Shown here in pieces: positions 4,709 through 27,678 of a stretch of 32,806 nt of DNA (positions within the stretch are counted from its first letter, which is position 1; each line of letters starts with the position of its first letter). The translations under genes were made by a program, and so were the position numbers. Under the pieces are notes generated by a model, which made no database searches, was not told the origin of the DNA, and saw nothing but the letters and a program-made list of their open reading frames with translations. The stretch comes from Lachnospiraceae bacterium (GTDB taxonomy: Bacteria > Bacillota > Clostridia > Lachnospirales > Lachnospiraceae). The DNA is taken from assembly GCA_017467805.1 (NCBI GenBank), contig JAFUKJ010000121.1, positions 1-32,806 on the forward strand, given 5' to 3'.

Positions 4709-6694
4709 TTGTCTAAAGAGAATGGATTTTTACCGATTACAAGAGAGGAAATGGAGGAGCTTGGTGTTTCACAGTTAGATTTTGTCTATGTGACAGGTGA
4801 TGCGTATGTGGATCATCCTTCCTTTGGTACGGCGATTATTTCCAGAATATTGCAGGCACATGGATATACGGTGGGTATTATTGCGCAGCCTGACTGGAAG
4901 GATGATAACAGTATCAATGTGTTTGGTGAGCCGCGACTTGGTTTCCTTGTATCGTCAGGTAATATGGATTCCATGGTAAATCATTATTATGTATCTAAGA
5001 GACATCGAGAGTCCGATGCCTATACACCTGGTGGTGAGGCATATAAGAGACCAGACCACGCGGTAGTGGTATATAGTAATCTGATTAGAAGAACCTATAA
5101 GAAAACACCGATTATCATAGGTGGAATTGAAGCAAGTCTTCGTCGTATGGCGCATTATGATTACTGGTCAAATTCTTTCAAGCGTTCCATTTTATTGGAT
5201 AGTCAGGCGGATTTGATTTCATATGGAATGGGTGAGAAGTCCATTGTAGAGATTGCTGACGCATTGAATAGCCAGATTGCAGTACAGGATATTACATTTA
5301 TTCCTGGAACTGTTTATAAGACCAAGGATATCAGTGGTCTGTATAATCATGAGATATTACCAGCCTATGATGAGATGCTGGCAGATAAGTCATTATATGC
5401 TCAAAGCTTTAAGACGCAGTATAATAATACAGACCCATTTAATGGAAAGGTATTAGTAGAGCCATATCCAAATGGAGTCTATGTTGTACAGAATGTGCCA
5501 CAGGAGCCGTTAACCATGCAGGAAATGGATGATGTGTATGCATTGCCATATATGAGAACCTATCATCCGTCCTATGAGGCGGCTGGCGGTGTTCCTGCGA
5601 TTGCGGAGATTAAGTTCTCCCTGATTAGTAACAGAGGCTGCTTTGGCGGTTGTAATTTCTGTGCGCTTACCTTCCATCAGGGACGCACGATACAGGTTAG
5701 AAGTCATGAGTCTATTATAGAAGAAGCAAAGCTTGTGACTCAGGATAAGGATTTCAAGGGATATATTCACGATGTCGGCGGACCGACAGCGAACTTTAGA
5801 ATGCCGTCCTGTCAGAAGCAGATGACAAAGGGCGTATGTAAGAACAGACAGTGTTTATTTCCAAAGCCATGTAAGAATTTACAGGTAGACCATTCAGATT
5901 ATTTACAGCTTCTGCGTAGTCTGCGTGAACTGCCTGGAGTGAAAAAGGTCTTTGTAAGGTCGGGAATCCGATTTGATTATTTAATGGAAGATAAGGATGA
6001 TACCTTTTTTAAGGAGTTGGTGGAGCATCATATCAGTGGTCAGTTAAAGGTGGCACCAGAGCATATCAGCGATACGGTATTATCGTTGCTTGGTAAGCCT
6101 GAGAATGCGGTTTATGAGGCGTTTTGTGCGAAGTATAAGCGATTGAATCAGAAGCTTGGTAAGAATCAGTTTTTAGTTCCATATCTGATGTCGTCGCACC
6201 CTGGCTCTACCTTGAAGGAAGCGATTGAGTTAGCAGAGTACTTACGGGATATTGGATATATGCCTGAGCAGGTACAGGATTTCTATCCGACACCTTCTAC
6301 CATGTCTACGGTAATGTACTATACAGGTATCAATCCTGATACCATGAAGCCTGTGTATGTGTGCAGAAACCCTCATGAGAAGGCAATGCAGAGAGCGTTG
6401 ATACAGTATCGTAATCCTAAGAATTATGATTTGGTTCGTGAGGCATTGGTTACTGCGGGCAGAGAGGATTTAATCGGCTTTGACAAGAAGTGTCTGATTA
6501 AGCCAAGAAAGCTTGCATCGCAGAATGCAGCAGAGGGTTATAAGGGTAAGAAGGCAGGAGATAAATCAGCTTCAAAGTCTGGTAAGAGTGCGAAGCAGAC
6601 GATGAACAAAGGCGGTAAAAATACAGCAATGAATAAGACAACAGAAAAGCCTAAGAAAAAGAAAACAATTCGTAATACACACAAAAAGAAATAA
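4709..6694 (+). CDS. YgiQ-family (UPF0313) radical SAM protein
   Basis: 661 residues starting at TTG 4709, which has AAGGAG exactly 8 nt upstream; no in-frame ATG gives the conserved N-terminus FLPITREEM. An N-terminal B12-binding-like domain ([13 protein letters not shown]..) is followed by the radical SAM core with the 4Fe-4S cluster cysteines C311, C315 and C318 (GCFGGCNFC), and a conserved [11 protein letters not shown] segment. The last about 70 residues are very rich in Lys and low in complexity (KSGKSAKQ.. to HKKK), suggesting nucleic-acid or ribosome contact. The family is widespread and its substrate is not established to my knowledge. It follows rsuA and precedes an SDR gene by 28 bp. 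Confidence 0.92.
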
Positions 6695-9221: not shown

Positions 9222-9755
9222 ATGGCAACATGGAATTCAAGGGGATTGCGAGGTTCCTTACTGGAGGAAATGATTAACAGGACTAATGAAAAATATCGGG
9301 AGTGTAAACTGGCATTGATTCAGAAGGTACCAACACCGATTACACCGATTAATATTGATAAGGAAAGCAGACATATTACATTAGCGTACTTTGACCAGAA
9401 GAGTACGGTAGACTATATTGGTGCCGTGCAGGGAATCCCTGTTTGCTTTGATGCCAAGGAATGCGCAGTTGATACCTTTACCTTGCAGAATATACATCCG
9501 CATCAGGTGGAATTCATGCGGGATTTTGAAAGACAGGACGGCGTTGCTTTCTTTTTAATATATTATACGAAGCGGGATGTGATGTATTATCTGCCGTTTC
9601 GTGATTTGGCAGTTTTCTGGAGCCGCATGGAAGAGGGCGGACGAAAGAGCTTTCGCTTTGACGAATTAAATCCTAAGTATTTTATTGAGAAGAAGCAGGG
9701 AATTCTTGTTCCGTATCTTGATATGCTTCAAATGGATTTAAGCGAGAGAGAATAA
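9222..9755 (+). CDS. recU: Holliday junction resolvase RecU
   Basis: 177 residues. RGLRGSLLEEMINRTNEKY at the N-terminus and STVDYIGAVQGIPVCFDAKE are RecU hallmarks; D64, D77 and K79 occupy the positions of the D/E/K nuclease metal site (the Bacillus enzyme has Asp, Glu, Lys with the same 13 and 2 residue spacing, so one Glu is Asp here). RecU cleaves four-way DNA junctions during recombination and chromosome segregation in Gram-positives. The ATG has AAAGGAAA upstream. It ends 26 bp before the promoter of the histidine operon and no clear terminator separates them. In other Firmicutes recU lies next to ponA, which is not the case here. Confidence 0.9.
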   Translation: MATWNSRGLRGSLLEEMINRTNEKYRECKLALIQKVPTPITPINIDKESRHITLAYFDQKSTVDYIGAVQGIPVCFDAKECAVDTFTLQNIHPHQVEFMRDFERQDGVAFFLIYYTKRDVMYYLPFRDLAVFWSRMEEGGRKSFRFDELNPKYFIEKKQGILVPYLDMLQMDLSERE

Positions 9756-16475: not shown

Positions 16476-18371
16476 ATGCGAAATTTAGCGCTAAGTGATG
16501 AGATTTTATTAAAAATTGAAAAGCCTGCACGTTATATTGGTAATGAAGTAAATAGCGTCATGAAGGATAAGGAGCAGGTAGATATTCGTTTTGCCATGTG
16601 CTTTCCTGATGTATATGAGATAGGAATGTCACATCTTGGAATTCAGATTATCTATGATATGTTAAACAGCTTTGAGGATACATGGTGTGAACGAGTGTAT
16701 TCGCCATGGCCTGATTTGGATGCTATTATGAGAGAGCAGAATATCCCTCTCTTCGCTTTGGAGTCACAGGAGCCTTTGAAGGACTTCGATTTCCTTGGTA
16801 TTACGATTCAGTATGAAATGTGCTATACCAATATATTACAGGTCATTGATTTGGCGCAGATTCCGCTTATGGCAAAGGATAGAACTGAGGAGCATCCGAT
16901 TGTTATTGGTGGTGGTCCATGTGCATACAATCCTGAGCCAATCGCAGATTTCTTCGATATTTTCTATATAGGTGAGGGCGAAACCCAGTACCGTAATTTA
17001 CTGGATTTATATAAGGAATGTAAGGCAAAGAATATAAGTCGAACAGAATTTTTAGCTATGGCAGCTAAGATTCCAGGACTTTATGTGCCACAGTTTTATG
17101 AGGTAAGCTATAAGGAGGATGGCACAATTGCGTCATTTACTCCGACTAGAGAGGACATTCCTGCAAAGGTTATGAAGGAAATCGTAAAGGATGTTACGAA
17201 TACCTATTATCCTGAGAAGCCTGTTGTGCCATTTATCAAGTGTACACAGGACAGAGTTGTGCTTGAGATTCAGCGTGGCTGCACCAGAGGCTGTCGTTTT
17301 TGTCAGGCAGGTCAGCTTTACCGTCCTGTTAGAGAGCGTGATGTTGAGATGCTTAAAGAGTACGCAGTTAAGATGCTGGCAAATACTGGTCATGAAGAGA
17401 TTTCGCTGAGTTCTTTGAGTTCAAGTGATTATTCGCAGTTGGAAGAACTGGTAAATTTCCTGATTGATGAATGTAATGAGAAGAAGATTAATATTTCACT
17501 GCCTTCACTTCGTATTGATGCCTTTTCTCTTGATGTTATGGAGAAGGTGCAGGATGTGAAGAAGAGCAGTCTGACCTTTGCACCCGAGGCAGGAAGTCAG
17601 AGATTAAGAAATGTTATTAATAAAGGCTTAACAGAGGAAGTTATTTTAAATGGTTCAAAGCTTGCTTTTGAGGGCGGCTGGACAAGAGTAAAGCTTTACT
17701 TTATGCTTGGTCTTCCAACTGAGACAGAAGAGGATATCAGAGGTATTGCAGAGCTTTCTAATAAGATAGCTGCAACATTCTATGAGACAGTTCCAAAGGA
17801 GAAGAGAAATGGTAAGGTACAGATTGTAGCAAGTACTTCTTTCTTTATTCCAAAGCCATTTACACCATTCCAGTGGGCGCCTCAGTGTACTAAAGAGCAG
17901 TTCTTGGATAAGGCTTATTTAACAAAGCGTTCTATTATGGAGCAGCTTAACCAGAAGAGCATTAAGTATAACTGGCATGAGGCTGACGCAAGTGTTATGG
18001 AGGGTATCCTTGCACGAGGCGACAGAAAGGTTGCAGAGGTTATCTTAAAGGCTTATCAGAAAGGCTGTATTTACGATGCATGGGCTGAGTACTATCAGAA
18101 TGATGTCTGGATGCAGACCTTTGAAGAGTGTGGTATTGATATTGGATTCTATACTACAAGAGAAAGAGATTTGGATGAGATTTTCCCTTGGGATTTCATT
18201 GATTGCGGTGTAACCAAGGAGTTCTTAAAGAGAGAATGGCTACAGGCAACCAAGGAAGAAGTAACAAAGAATTGTTATATAGAGTGTAATGCATGTGGAG
18301 CAGCTCGTTTTGGCTGTGGTGTATGTGTAGAGCCTAGAAAGACAAAGGAAGGTGCAAACAATGAAGCTTAG
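16476..18371 (+). CDS. B12-binding-domain radical SAM protein, TIGR03960 type
   Basis: 631 residues. An N-terminal Rossmann-like B12-binding domain (FAMCFPDVYEIGMSHLGIQI) is followed by the radical SAM core with the cluster cysteines C269, C273, C276 (RGCTRGCRFC) and PEAGSQRLRNVINKG further on. The C-terminus has a second Cys cluster (NCYIECNACGAARFGCGVC), probably a metal site. GGAG lies 7 nt before the ATG. In many bacteria this family is immediately followed by, or fused to, a TIGR03936 protein and an RNase E/G gene, as here; the substrate is not established to my knowledge. Its last 11 nt overlap the start of the next gene, so translational coupling is expected. Confidence 0.92.
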   Translation: MRNLALSDEILLKIEKPARYIGNEVNSVMKDKEQVDIRFAMCFPDVYEIGMSHLGIQIIYDMLNSFEDTWCERVYSPWPDLDAIMREQNIPLFALESQEPLKDFDFLGITIQYEMCYTNILQVIDLAQIPLMAKDRTEEHPIVIGGGPCAYNPEPIADFFDIFYIGEGETQYRNLLDLYKECKAKNISRTEFLAMAAKIPGLYVPQFYEVSYKEDGTIASFTPTREDIPAKVMKEIVKDVTNTYYPEKPVVPFIKCTQDRVVLEIQRGCTRGCRFCQAGQLYRPVRERDVEMLKEYAVKMLANTGHEEISLSSLSSSDYSQLEELVNFLIDECNEKKINISLPSLRIDAFSLDVMEKVQDVKKSSLTFAPEAGSQRLRNVINKGLTEEVILNGSKLAFEGGWTRVKLYFMLGLPTETEEDIRGIAELSNKIAATFYETVPKEKRNGKVQIVASTSFFIPKPFTPFQWAPQCTKEQFLDKAYLTKRSIMEQLNQKSIKYNWHEADASVMEGILARGDRKVAEVILKAYQKGCIYDAWAEYYQNDVWMQTFEECGIDIGFYTTRERDLDEIFPWDFIDCGVTKEFLKREWLQATKEEVTKNCYIECNACGAARFGCGVCVEPRKTKEGANNEA

Positions 18372-19068
18372 AGTTAAATTTTCAAAATATGGTGCCTTAA
18401 GATTTATCGGACACCTTGATGTTATGCGCTTTTTCCAGAAAGCAATCTGACGAGCAGGGATTGATATTGCATATTCAAGTTGCTTTAGACATCATCAGAT
18501 TATGTCCTTTTCCAAGCCTCTTGGTATTGGCTTAGAGAGTAATGGCGAATACATGGATATTGAGGTGAATTCTGTTACAAGTGCTACCGAAATGTTAAAG
18601 CAGTTTAACGAACAGATGGTAGAAGGCATTGAAGTTCTTGAAATCAAGCTTTTGCCTGAAGGTGCAGGAAATGCTATGGCAAGTGTCGCAGCTGCCACCT
18701 ATACAATTCGTTTTAGAGAAGGCTATGAACCAAGCTTTGACTATGCTTCTAAGCTTGATGAATTCTTTGCACAAGACGAGATTGTTGTAACAAAGCAGAC
18801 AAAGAGAAGTGAATCTACCTTCGATATGAAGCCTTCTATTTATGACTGTCATATGGCTGATAATGGTAAGGATATTTCGATTACAGTAGATTGCAGCAGT
18901 GCGGGAAATATTAAGCCAAGCTTGGTAATGAAGGCATTTTATGAGAAAAATGGCGCCCAGCTTAATGAGCTTGCACTTTTAGTAACGCGAGAAGAAACCT
19001 ATACAAATCTTGGTGATGAAGAGAACCGTAAGCTGGTTCCTTTAGGACAGGTTGGAGACGATTTTTAA
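18361..19068 (+). pseudogene. TIGR03936 (DUF2344) radical-SAM-linked protein, interrupted by an in-frame TGA
   Basis: The frame opens at ATG 18361, overlapping the previous gene by 11 nt, with the expected N-terminus (KLRVKFSKYGALRFIGHLDV). Codon 30 (18448-18450) is TGA where the family has Arg in FQKAIRRAG; the next codon is CGA, so one C-to-T change would explain it. Beyond the stop the frame stays open to TAA 19066-19068, a 235-codon total of normal length. Just after it, CFRHHQIMSF stands where G-F-S/N-P-H is usual, so several conserved residues also differ. Options: a recent nonsense mutation, a sequencing or consensus error, or restart at ATG 18502 giving a 188-residue truncated protein. 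An ordinary TGA stop in coaD argues against genome-wide reassignment. Confidence 0.8.
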
Positions 19069-20258
19069 TGACGGATGCAAAGCTTGTAATTACAAGATAT
19101 CAAGAAGGTGTTTTATCCTTTGTTATAAATAATAATCGCATGGAGTCAGTCGCTTTTTCAAGACAGAGTGAGAGAGGAAGCATAGGAGATATCTATGTTG
19201 CAAAGGTTGTTAATGTAGTACCTCATTTGAATGCGGCATTTATTGATTATATGCCAGGGAAAAAGGGATTTTTACCTTTGGATAAATATGTGCCAGTTCT
19301 AACCAATCGTGAATATAACGGCAAGCTGGTCGCAGGAGATGAAGTGCTAGTACAGTTAGAGAAAGAGGCGGTTCGCACTAAGGAGCCTGTTTTTACACTG
19401 AATTTATCCTTAGCAGGGAATTACTGTGTGGTAACAAATGCAGATACCAAGAAAGGCATTTCCAATAAAGTAGCAAAGAAGTGGAAGGATGCGCTTTTTG
19501 AAGCAGTGCCTAAGGACATTCCTTATGGCATTGTGGTACGAACGAATGCAGGCAGACTTGCAGAGGAGAATCAGCTCCAGGCTTTTGCAGATGAATGTAA
19601 GCTTTTGTCTGATGAGATGAAGCAGCTATTGCAGAACAGTCGTCATAGAACCTGCTATAGTTGTGTGCGTAAGGCGGCAAGCGAATATCTGGCACAGGTG
19701 TGTGATAACAGTCATGCGGAATTTTCTGAGATTGTGACAGATGATGAGGACTTATTTGCTGAACTGAAGGCTTATTTGGCTGCAAATATGCCTCAATATC
19801 TTTCTATGCTTCGTTTATATACAGACGTTTCCTATTCGATGCAGAAGCTATATGGTGTTGAGACTAAGCTTGGAGAGCTGTTGGATAAAAGGGTTTGGAT
19901 GAAATCGGGAGCATACCTTGTTATAGAACAGACAGAAGCCATGTATGTGGTGGATGTGAATTCAGGTAAGAATATTTCGGGTAAGGAAAACGAGGAATAT
20001 ATCTATAAGATTAATCTTGAAGCAGCCACGGAGACTATGCGCCAGATACGTTTGAGAAACCTTTCGGGTATTATTATTGTAGACTTTTTGAATATGAAGA
20101 GTCAGGAGAAGCAGGAAGCACTTTTGAGAGAATTGCGAGAACTTGCAGGGCAGGATAAGATTTATACAAATGTTGTAGATATGACTCCATTAGGACTTGT
20201 AGAGATTACCAGAAAGAAAACAAAGCCGATTCTTGCACAGCAGCTTAAGGCATTTTAA
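19068..20258 (+). CDS. rng: RNase E/G family ribonuclease, short form
   Basis: 396 residues; its ATG shares the last A of the TAA of the preceding frame (TAATG). An S1-like domain lies about residues 35-110 (GSIGDIYVAKVVNVVPHLNAAF..). The DNase I-like catalytic region shows AMYVVDVNSGKNISG with D296, and IIIVDFLNM with D339, corresponding to the two Mg-binding Asp residues of RNase E (D303, D346). The protein stops at TRKKTKPILAQQLKAF, before the CPxC zinc link that connects subunits in RNase E/G, so the zinc-link and small domain are missing. It probably acts in rRNA or mRNA 5'-end processing. Fits the TIGR03960/TIGR03936/RNase G conserved context. Confidence 0.9.
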   Translation: MTDAKLVITRYQEGVLSFVINNNRMESVAFSRQSERGSIGDIYVAKVVNVVPHLNAAFIDYMPGKKGFLPLDKYVPVLTNREYNGKLVAGDEVLVQLEKEAVRTKEPVFTLNLSLAGNYCVVTNADTKKGISNKVAKKWKDALFEAVPKDIPYGIVVRTNAGRLAEENQLQAFADECKLLSDEMKQLLQNSRHRTCYSCVRKAASEYLAQVCDNSHAEFSEIVTDDEDLFAELKAYLAANMPQYLSMLRLYTDVSYSMQKLYGVETKLGELLDKRVWMKSGAYLVIEQTEAMYVVDVNSGKNISGKENEEYIYKINLEAATETMRQIRLRNLSGIIIVDFLNMKSQEKQEALLRELRELAGQDKIYTNVVDMTPLGLVEITRKKTKPILAQQLKAF

Positions 20259-27198: not shown

Positions 27199-27240
27199 TC
27201 TTTTTAAGAAATATGTTCAAGTATAGTGGGAGGAACAAGA

Positions 27241-27678
27241 ATGAGATATGGTTCAGTATATTTGGTGGTTAGAGATTTTGATAAATCAGTTTCCTTTTAT
27301 GAAAACCTATTAGATATGAAGGTTAGTGCGACAAATGGAAAGCGTTTTGCTATGTTTCATAATGAAGGGCTCAAGCTTTGTTTGATGAATGGATATTATG
27401 ATATTCAAAATAGAGAGCAGGTTATAACCAAGGGAGAACACTGGCCAATGTATGATGACCTAGATAAGATTGCAGATAGTGAGAATTCTCGCAAAGTATT
27501 TATTAACTTGGGGGTGGAAGACTTGAAAGCAGAATATGAGAGAATTAAACAGTTGGGAATTGCAGTAGAGTTAACACCGATTCGATATATTAATGTTTTC
27601 TCACCATATTGGTACTTTACTTTTATGGATCCAGATGGTAATCCGATAGAGATTACGGGTGGATATACTGAGGGATAG
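27241..27678 (+). CDS. Glyoxalase/bleomycin-resistance (VOC) superfamily protein
   Basis: 145 residues from ATG 27241 with GGGAGGA 6 nt upstream (a frame opening at 27226 has none). MRYGSVYLVVRDFDKSVSFYENLLDMKV is the VOC N-terminal module and FTFMDPDGNPIEI the C-terminal strand with the usual metal-ligand Glu; VFINLGVEDLKAEYERIKQLG links them. Function could be lyase, dioxygenase or antibiotic binding; undeterminable. Followed closely by the Cys-rich unknown gene (9 bp). Confidence 0.85.
   Translation: MRYGSVYLVVRDFDKSVSFYENLLDMKVSATNGKRFAMFHNEGLKLCLMNGYYDIQNREQVITKGEHWPMYDDLDKIADSENSRKVFINLGVEDLKAEYERIKQLGIAVELTPIRYINVFSPYWYFTFMDPDGNPIEITGGYTEG

Follow-up and report, generated by a model that had tools for sequence, protein, structure and literature searches.

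Proteins of the TIGR03936/DUF2344 family (PF10105) are associated with radical SAM enzymes, and a Pfam paper on the PUA clan pairs DUF2344 with PseudoU_synth_1 (PMC7955657). Coding sequences interrupted through sequencing errors have a precedent in Mycobacterium smegmatis (PMC1852416); there, a homologue was likewise split in the deposited sequence, and resequencing separates error from real mutation. Unlike the Mycobacterium smegmatis cases, the one described here concerns several substitutions that form a patch in a draft genome, and it is known from the consensus alone.

The window, i.e., the whole stretch of DNA that was analysed, is a contig of 32,806 bases (C115) from a 2.99 Mb assembly of 121 contigs, with a completeness of 95% and a contamination of 3%. 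Its relatives were found in the Lachnospiraceae, the nearest being SIG329 (L031), whose TIGR03936 gene was identical to that of the window at 608 of 708 bases. A plasmid origin of the window was rejected, no near match being found among plasmid records. The TIGR03936 gene of the window resembles the rest of its family in being single-copy, in its TIGR03960 neighbour, in its full-length profile match and in its neighbourhood; it differs from them in having an in-frame TGA as codon 30 and in the alteration of four invariant residues.

The interrupted TIGR03936 gene and its locus

The TIGR03936 frame (18361..19068, plus strand) begins with the ATG at 18361, is broken by the TGA at 18448-18450 (plus strand) and is then open until the TAA at 19066-19068, which agrees with an earlier sequence-only reading of this DNA in which the gene was taken to be full length apart from codon 30. 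With the TGA read through by the search tool, the frame scored 202.1 bits against the TIGR03936/DUF2344 profile (cut-off 71.9). Only one match was obtained in the assembly at the DNA level, and a second full copy was rejected, the other two genome matches being pseudouridine synthase genes. Both neighbours had also been described as intact, and they were found to be so. The TIGR03960 gene for the B12-binding radical SAM partner (16476..18371, plus strand) was full length, scored 1067 bits and overlapped the TIGR03936 start by 11 bases; the RNase E/G family gene (19068..20258, plus strand) was uninterrupted and matched PF10150 across the whole profile, although its 280.3 bits lay under the TIGR00757 cut-off of 325.95. 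We take the order downstream of the RNase E/G gene to be rplU, Prp protease, rpmA and obgE (rplU, rpmA and obgE were recognised from their translations). Elsewhere in the window, a glyoxalase-family gene (27226-27678) was open, yet its alignment with the nearest relative ran in two frames, and a frameshift is thus present in one of these two sequences.

Comparison with relatives

The TIGR03936 gene was aligned with that of 109 relative loci, among which some genomes were counted twice, as an unnamed entry and as a named contig; the named loci alone numbered 80. Arginine occupied position 30 in 107 of the 109 loci and cysteine in the other 2 (79 and 1, respectively, in the named set), as the sequence-only reading had expected, while G41, S43, P44 and A51 were invariant in all 109. 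At positions 30, 41, 43, 44 and 51 the window carried a stop, C, R, H and S, so that the uninterrupted frame with conserved R30, G41, S43, P44 and A51 that characterises the relatives is absent from it. The replacement of the usual motif around codons 41-44 was real in the consensus, with CFRHH standing in place of the invariant G[FY]SPH; the limit that had been set to the altered stretch was too narrow, as alterations reached codons 51-52. The whole patch of unusual substitutions covers 18448..18516 (plus strand) and comprises codons 30, 41, 43, 44 and 51 at conserved columns and codon 52 at a variable one.

The alignment with close relatives, which had been proposed as a check, gave the same TGA in none of the 109 loci, and no stop of any kind was seen in the first 85 positions of these loci. 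When the survey was made across the genus, the gene was above the cut-off in 37 of 39 genomes and a stop was present only in the genome of the window; the two genomes without a gene above the cut-off were 66% and 83% complete. At family level the TIGR03936 cut-off was passed in 350 of 397 genomes, and no stops occurred among the TIGR03936 matches listed for these genomes, a list in which the window's genome had no row of its own. The TGA had also been explained by a single C-to-T change from CGA, and this was not established by the comparison: SIG329 has AGA at codon 30 followed by CGT at codon 31, and the earlier base at 18448 can thus not be fixed from relatives.

Both profiles were scored against their cut-offs in the 397 family genomes, whereby 347 genomes had both genes, 45 had neither, 2 had TIGR03960 only and 3 had TIGR03936 only. 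In the two TIGR03960-only genomes (G105 and G160) the match extended to the edge of its contig, which means that the partner was simply unassembled there; G230, where a fragment of TIGR03960 likewise runs to a contig edge, was scored under neither. Two of the TIGR03936-only genomes, G206 and G227, were 68% and 86% complete. In G192 (L243, G192:C81), TIGR03960 was down to a match of 41 positions at the start of the profile, with transposase-like and ParA-like frames next to it (named by eye), and a TIGR03936 match over E 1e-50 was still present. Judged by this sample of 397 genomes, a true loss of TIGR03936 with TIGR03960 left intact would have no parallel.

Shape of the substitution patch

Six conserved columns were altered in the TIGR03936 gene of the window, five of them within 22 codons (30-51), and when six hits were placed at random on the 64 conserved columns, 1015 of 100000 arrangements were equally tight. 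Among the 80 named relatives, the gene never showed more than two departures of this kind. The departures were scored over ten genes of the locus including TIGR03936, for two of which the rows were too few for scoring; beyond the patch, three isolated ones were left in the window, one each in the TIGR03936 gene, TIGR03960 and the RNase G gene.

Outside the patch, the polarised non-synonymous changes in the TIGR03936 gene amounted to 4 on the window branch and 8 on that of the nearest relative, and the divergence at third positions showed no step at the patch. On these grounds the gene, judged from its sequence, is not decaying as a whole, and a chimeric joint was rejected. The relaxed selection across the whole gene that marks a pseudogene was thus lacking, although a pseudogene of very recent origin might not yet have it.

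Four of the changes in the patch could be polarised (G>T, T>A, C>A and G>T), and all of these were transversions to A or T, while transitions made up 32 of the 46 polarised synonymous changes on the window branch. As transversions accounted for 12 of the 25 non-synonymous changes outside the patch on this branch, the all-transversion patch is weak evidence for an error. A mutator lineage of the G:C to T:A type was rejected, there being one G>T and one C>A among the 46 polarised synonymous changes. The idea that the patch had a template at another place in the window or the genome was rejected as well, since only short, chance-like matches were obtained.

Other interrupted genes and quality of the assembly

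Two further genes seemingly cut by one in-frame stop were seen in 398 kb sampled from the window's assembly. The DJ-1/PfpI gene (L166:8863-9462, G000:C41) has an in-frame TAA at 9295 and is otherwise open, its first half matching profile positions 1-122 and its second half, weakly (E 0.003), positions 132-164 out of 165. The SH3/NlpC-P60 gene (L169:4190-5338, G000:C59) has an apparent in-frame TGA at 4709 and is otherwise open; its halves matched SH3_3 and NLPC_P60, the second half scored as coding with no start codon for 128 codons, and we infer that the two are one gene. In another genome of the family, G108, the TIGR03960 gene (L239:305-2173, G108:C192) contains a TAA and a TAG 12 codons apart with an invariant G between them altered, and is otherwise open. 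Neither stop falls on a conserved column, three more conservative departures occur within the same 80 codons, and the neighbouring TIGR03936 gene is an open frame.

A coarse scan for cut genes, which yields raw candidates and whose score filter missed the known stop at codon 30, gave 11 candidates in 431 kb of the window's assembly, 14 in 400 kb of G010 and 4 in 337 kb of G011, so that the densities were not clearly different. Nine right-hand pieces were checked out of the 18 control candidates from G010 and G011; six had domains uncut at the stop and three had no family. From the 11 candidates in the window's own assembly, seven were checked: the DJ-1/PfpI and SH3/NlpC-P60 genes were judged to be cut, two in L153 had domains uncut at the stop and three had no family match over a cut-off. 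All 98 of the ABC-transporter matches in the assembly were free of stops and the window contained no N, which indicates that the assembly is not broadly error-ridden.

Explanations for the stop at codon 30

The codon-30 stop together with the odd residues near it is probably a local, base-level assembly error. A short stretch of the draft consensus, of about 70 bases, would carry several wrong bases, perhaps as a result of thin or poor reads, and the TIGR03936 gene would be intact in the living organism. This explanation is favoured over a recent loss because the damage is patch-like, because constraint is normal elsewhere in the gene and because the pairing with TIGR03960 is near-strict. The two further genes of the assembly that look cut by one stop and the doubly interrupted TIGR03960 gene of G108 speak for it as well, whereas the stop-free ABC-transporter matches, the lack of N in the window and the similar density of raw candidates in the control genomes speak against it. 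It is our best reading, with a genuine, very recent inactivation next, and clustered real mutations could look identical to errors.

If the inactivation were genuine, the stop and the clustered substitutions would be real, perhaps produced in one local mutational event, and TIGR03960 would now be without its partner. We regard this as a possible though clearly less probable account. The family can do without the pair, as 45 of the 397 genomes have neither member above the cut-off; elsewhere the assembly shows no obvious abundance of errors, and other apparently interrupted genes are present in it. However, intact TIGR03960 without TIGR03936 was met only at contig edges among the 397 genomes, neutral decay is not expected to confine its hits to 22 codons, and no template from which the patch might have been copied was found in the window or the genome. 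Both assembly error and recent loss had been offered by the sequence-only reading and both remain; the read-through or restart that it named as a third option was found unlikely on the evidence given below.

It appears improbable that the change is genuine and has become fixed in the species, with TIGR03960 acting alone or with a shortened, restarted partner of 188 amino acids. Still more doubtful is that translation simply restarts at the ATG at 18502 and that the 188-aa product (18502..19068, plus strand) is functional. This ATG is in frame, 17 codons past the stop, and the product by itself scored 130.7 bits against TIGR03936, with the match starting at profile position 47; against this, it would lack residues 1-47 and with them 23 of the 57 columns that are invariant in alignment A2, and no purine-rich run resembling a ribosome-binding site was seen by eye just upstream.

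Programmed read-through of the TGA, as selenocysteine or as a reassigned codon, would give a full-length protein and would fit a frame that is open on both sides of the stop, and the altered codons nearby might reflect a downstream RNA element. Yet prfB, encoding RF2, was present without stops, and TGA served as an ordinary terminator for 60 of the 396 long open frames sampled from 431 kb of the assembly, as against 6 of 37 frames from the nearest relative, by which a lineage-wide shift away from TGA stops was rejected; within the window alone it ended 1 of 39 genes. No genome match above the cut-off was obtained for selB or for tRNA-Sec, the four best candidates for the latter being Ser, Gly, Trp and Leu tRNAs, and the UCA anticodon was found in none of 28 tRNA matches, a set that was incomplete in having no Ala, Ile, His or Phe tRNA. 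Neither selenocysteine machinery nor a UCA-anticodon tRNA was thus found, and in a 95% complete assembly such absence is not proof. A SECIS-like hairpin was rejected, the RNA after the TGA folding no better than shuffles. With no relative sharing the TGA, read-through is the least credible of the explanations.

Possible role of TIGR03936 and meaning of the finding

The TIGR03936 profile weakly matched two pseudouridine synthase genes of the TruA type (PF01416) in the genome of the window (G000:C4:34669-34917 and C66:8625-8831; L148 and L149), with a similarity that spans only part of the domain, and one of the two genes passed the DUF2344 cut-off. These weak matches hint at a fold and at RNA binding common to TIGR03936 and the TruA-type genes. 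Taken together with the pairing of DUF2344 and PseudoU_synth_1 given in the Pfam paper (PMC7955657), they suggest that TIGR03936 may be an RNA-binding partner of the radical SAM enzyme. Clan and neighbourhood, in turn, would point to a role in RNA modification. A profile search of solved structures gave no match up to E 1.

The main lesson is one of caution: gene loss or recoding should not be concluded from a lone stop when the genome is a draft. The near-strict joint presence and absence of TIGR03960 and TIGR03936 in the 397 genomes, where the two are kept or lost together, supports the view that these two proteins, both uncharacterised, function as a unit. An intact gene would encode a TruA-like partner, of the pseudouridine-synthase clan, of a B12-binding radical SAM enzyme; a real and fixed change would break a pairing to which the family otherwise keeps.
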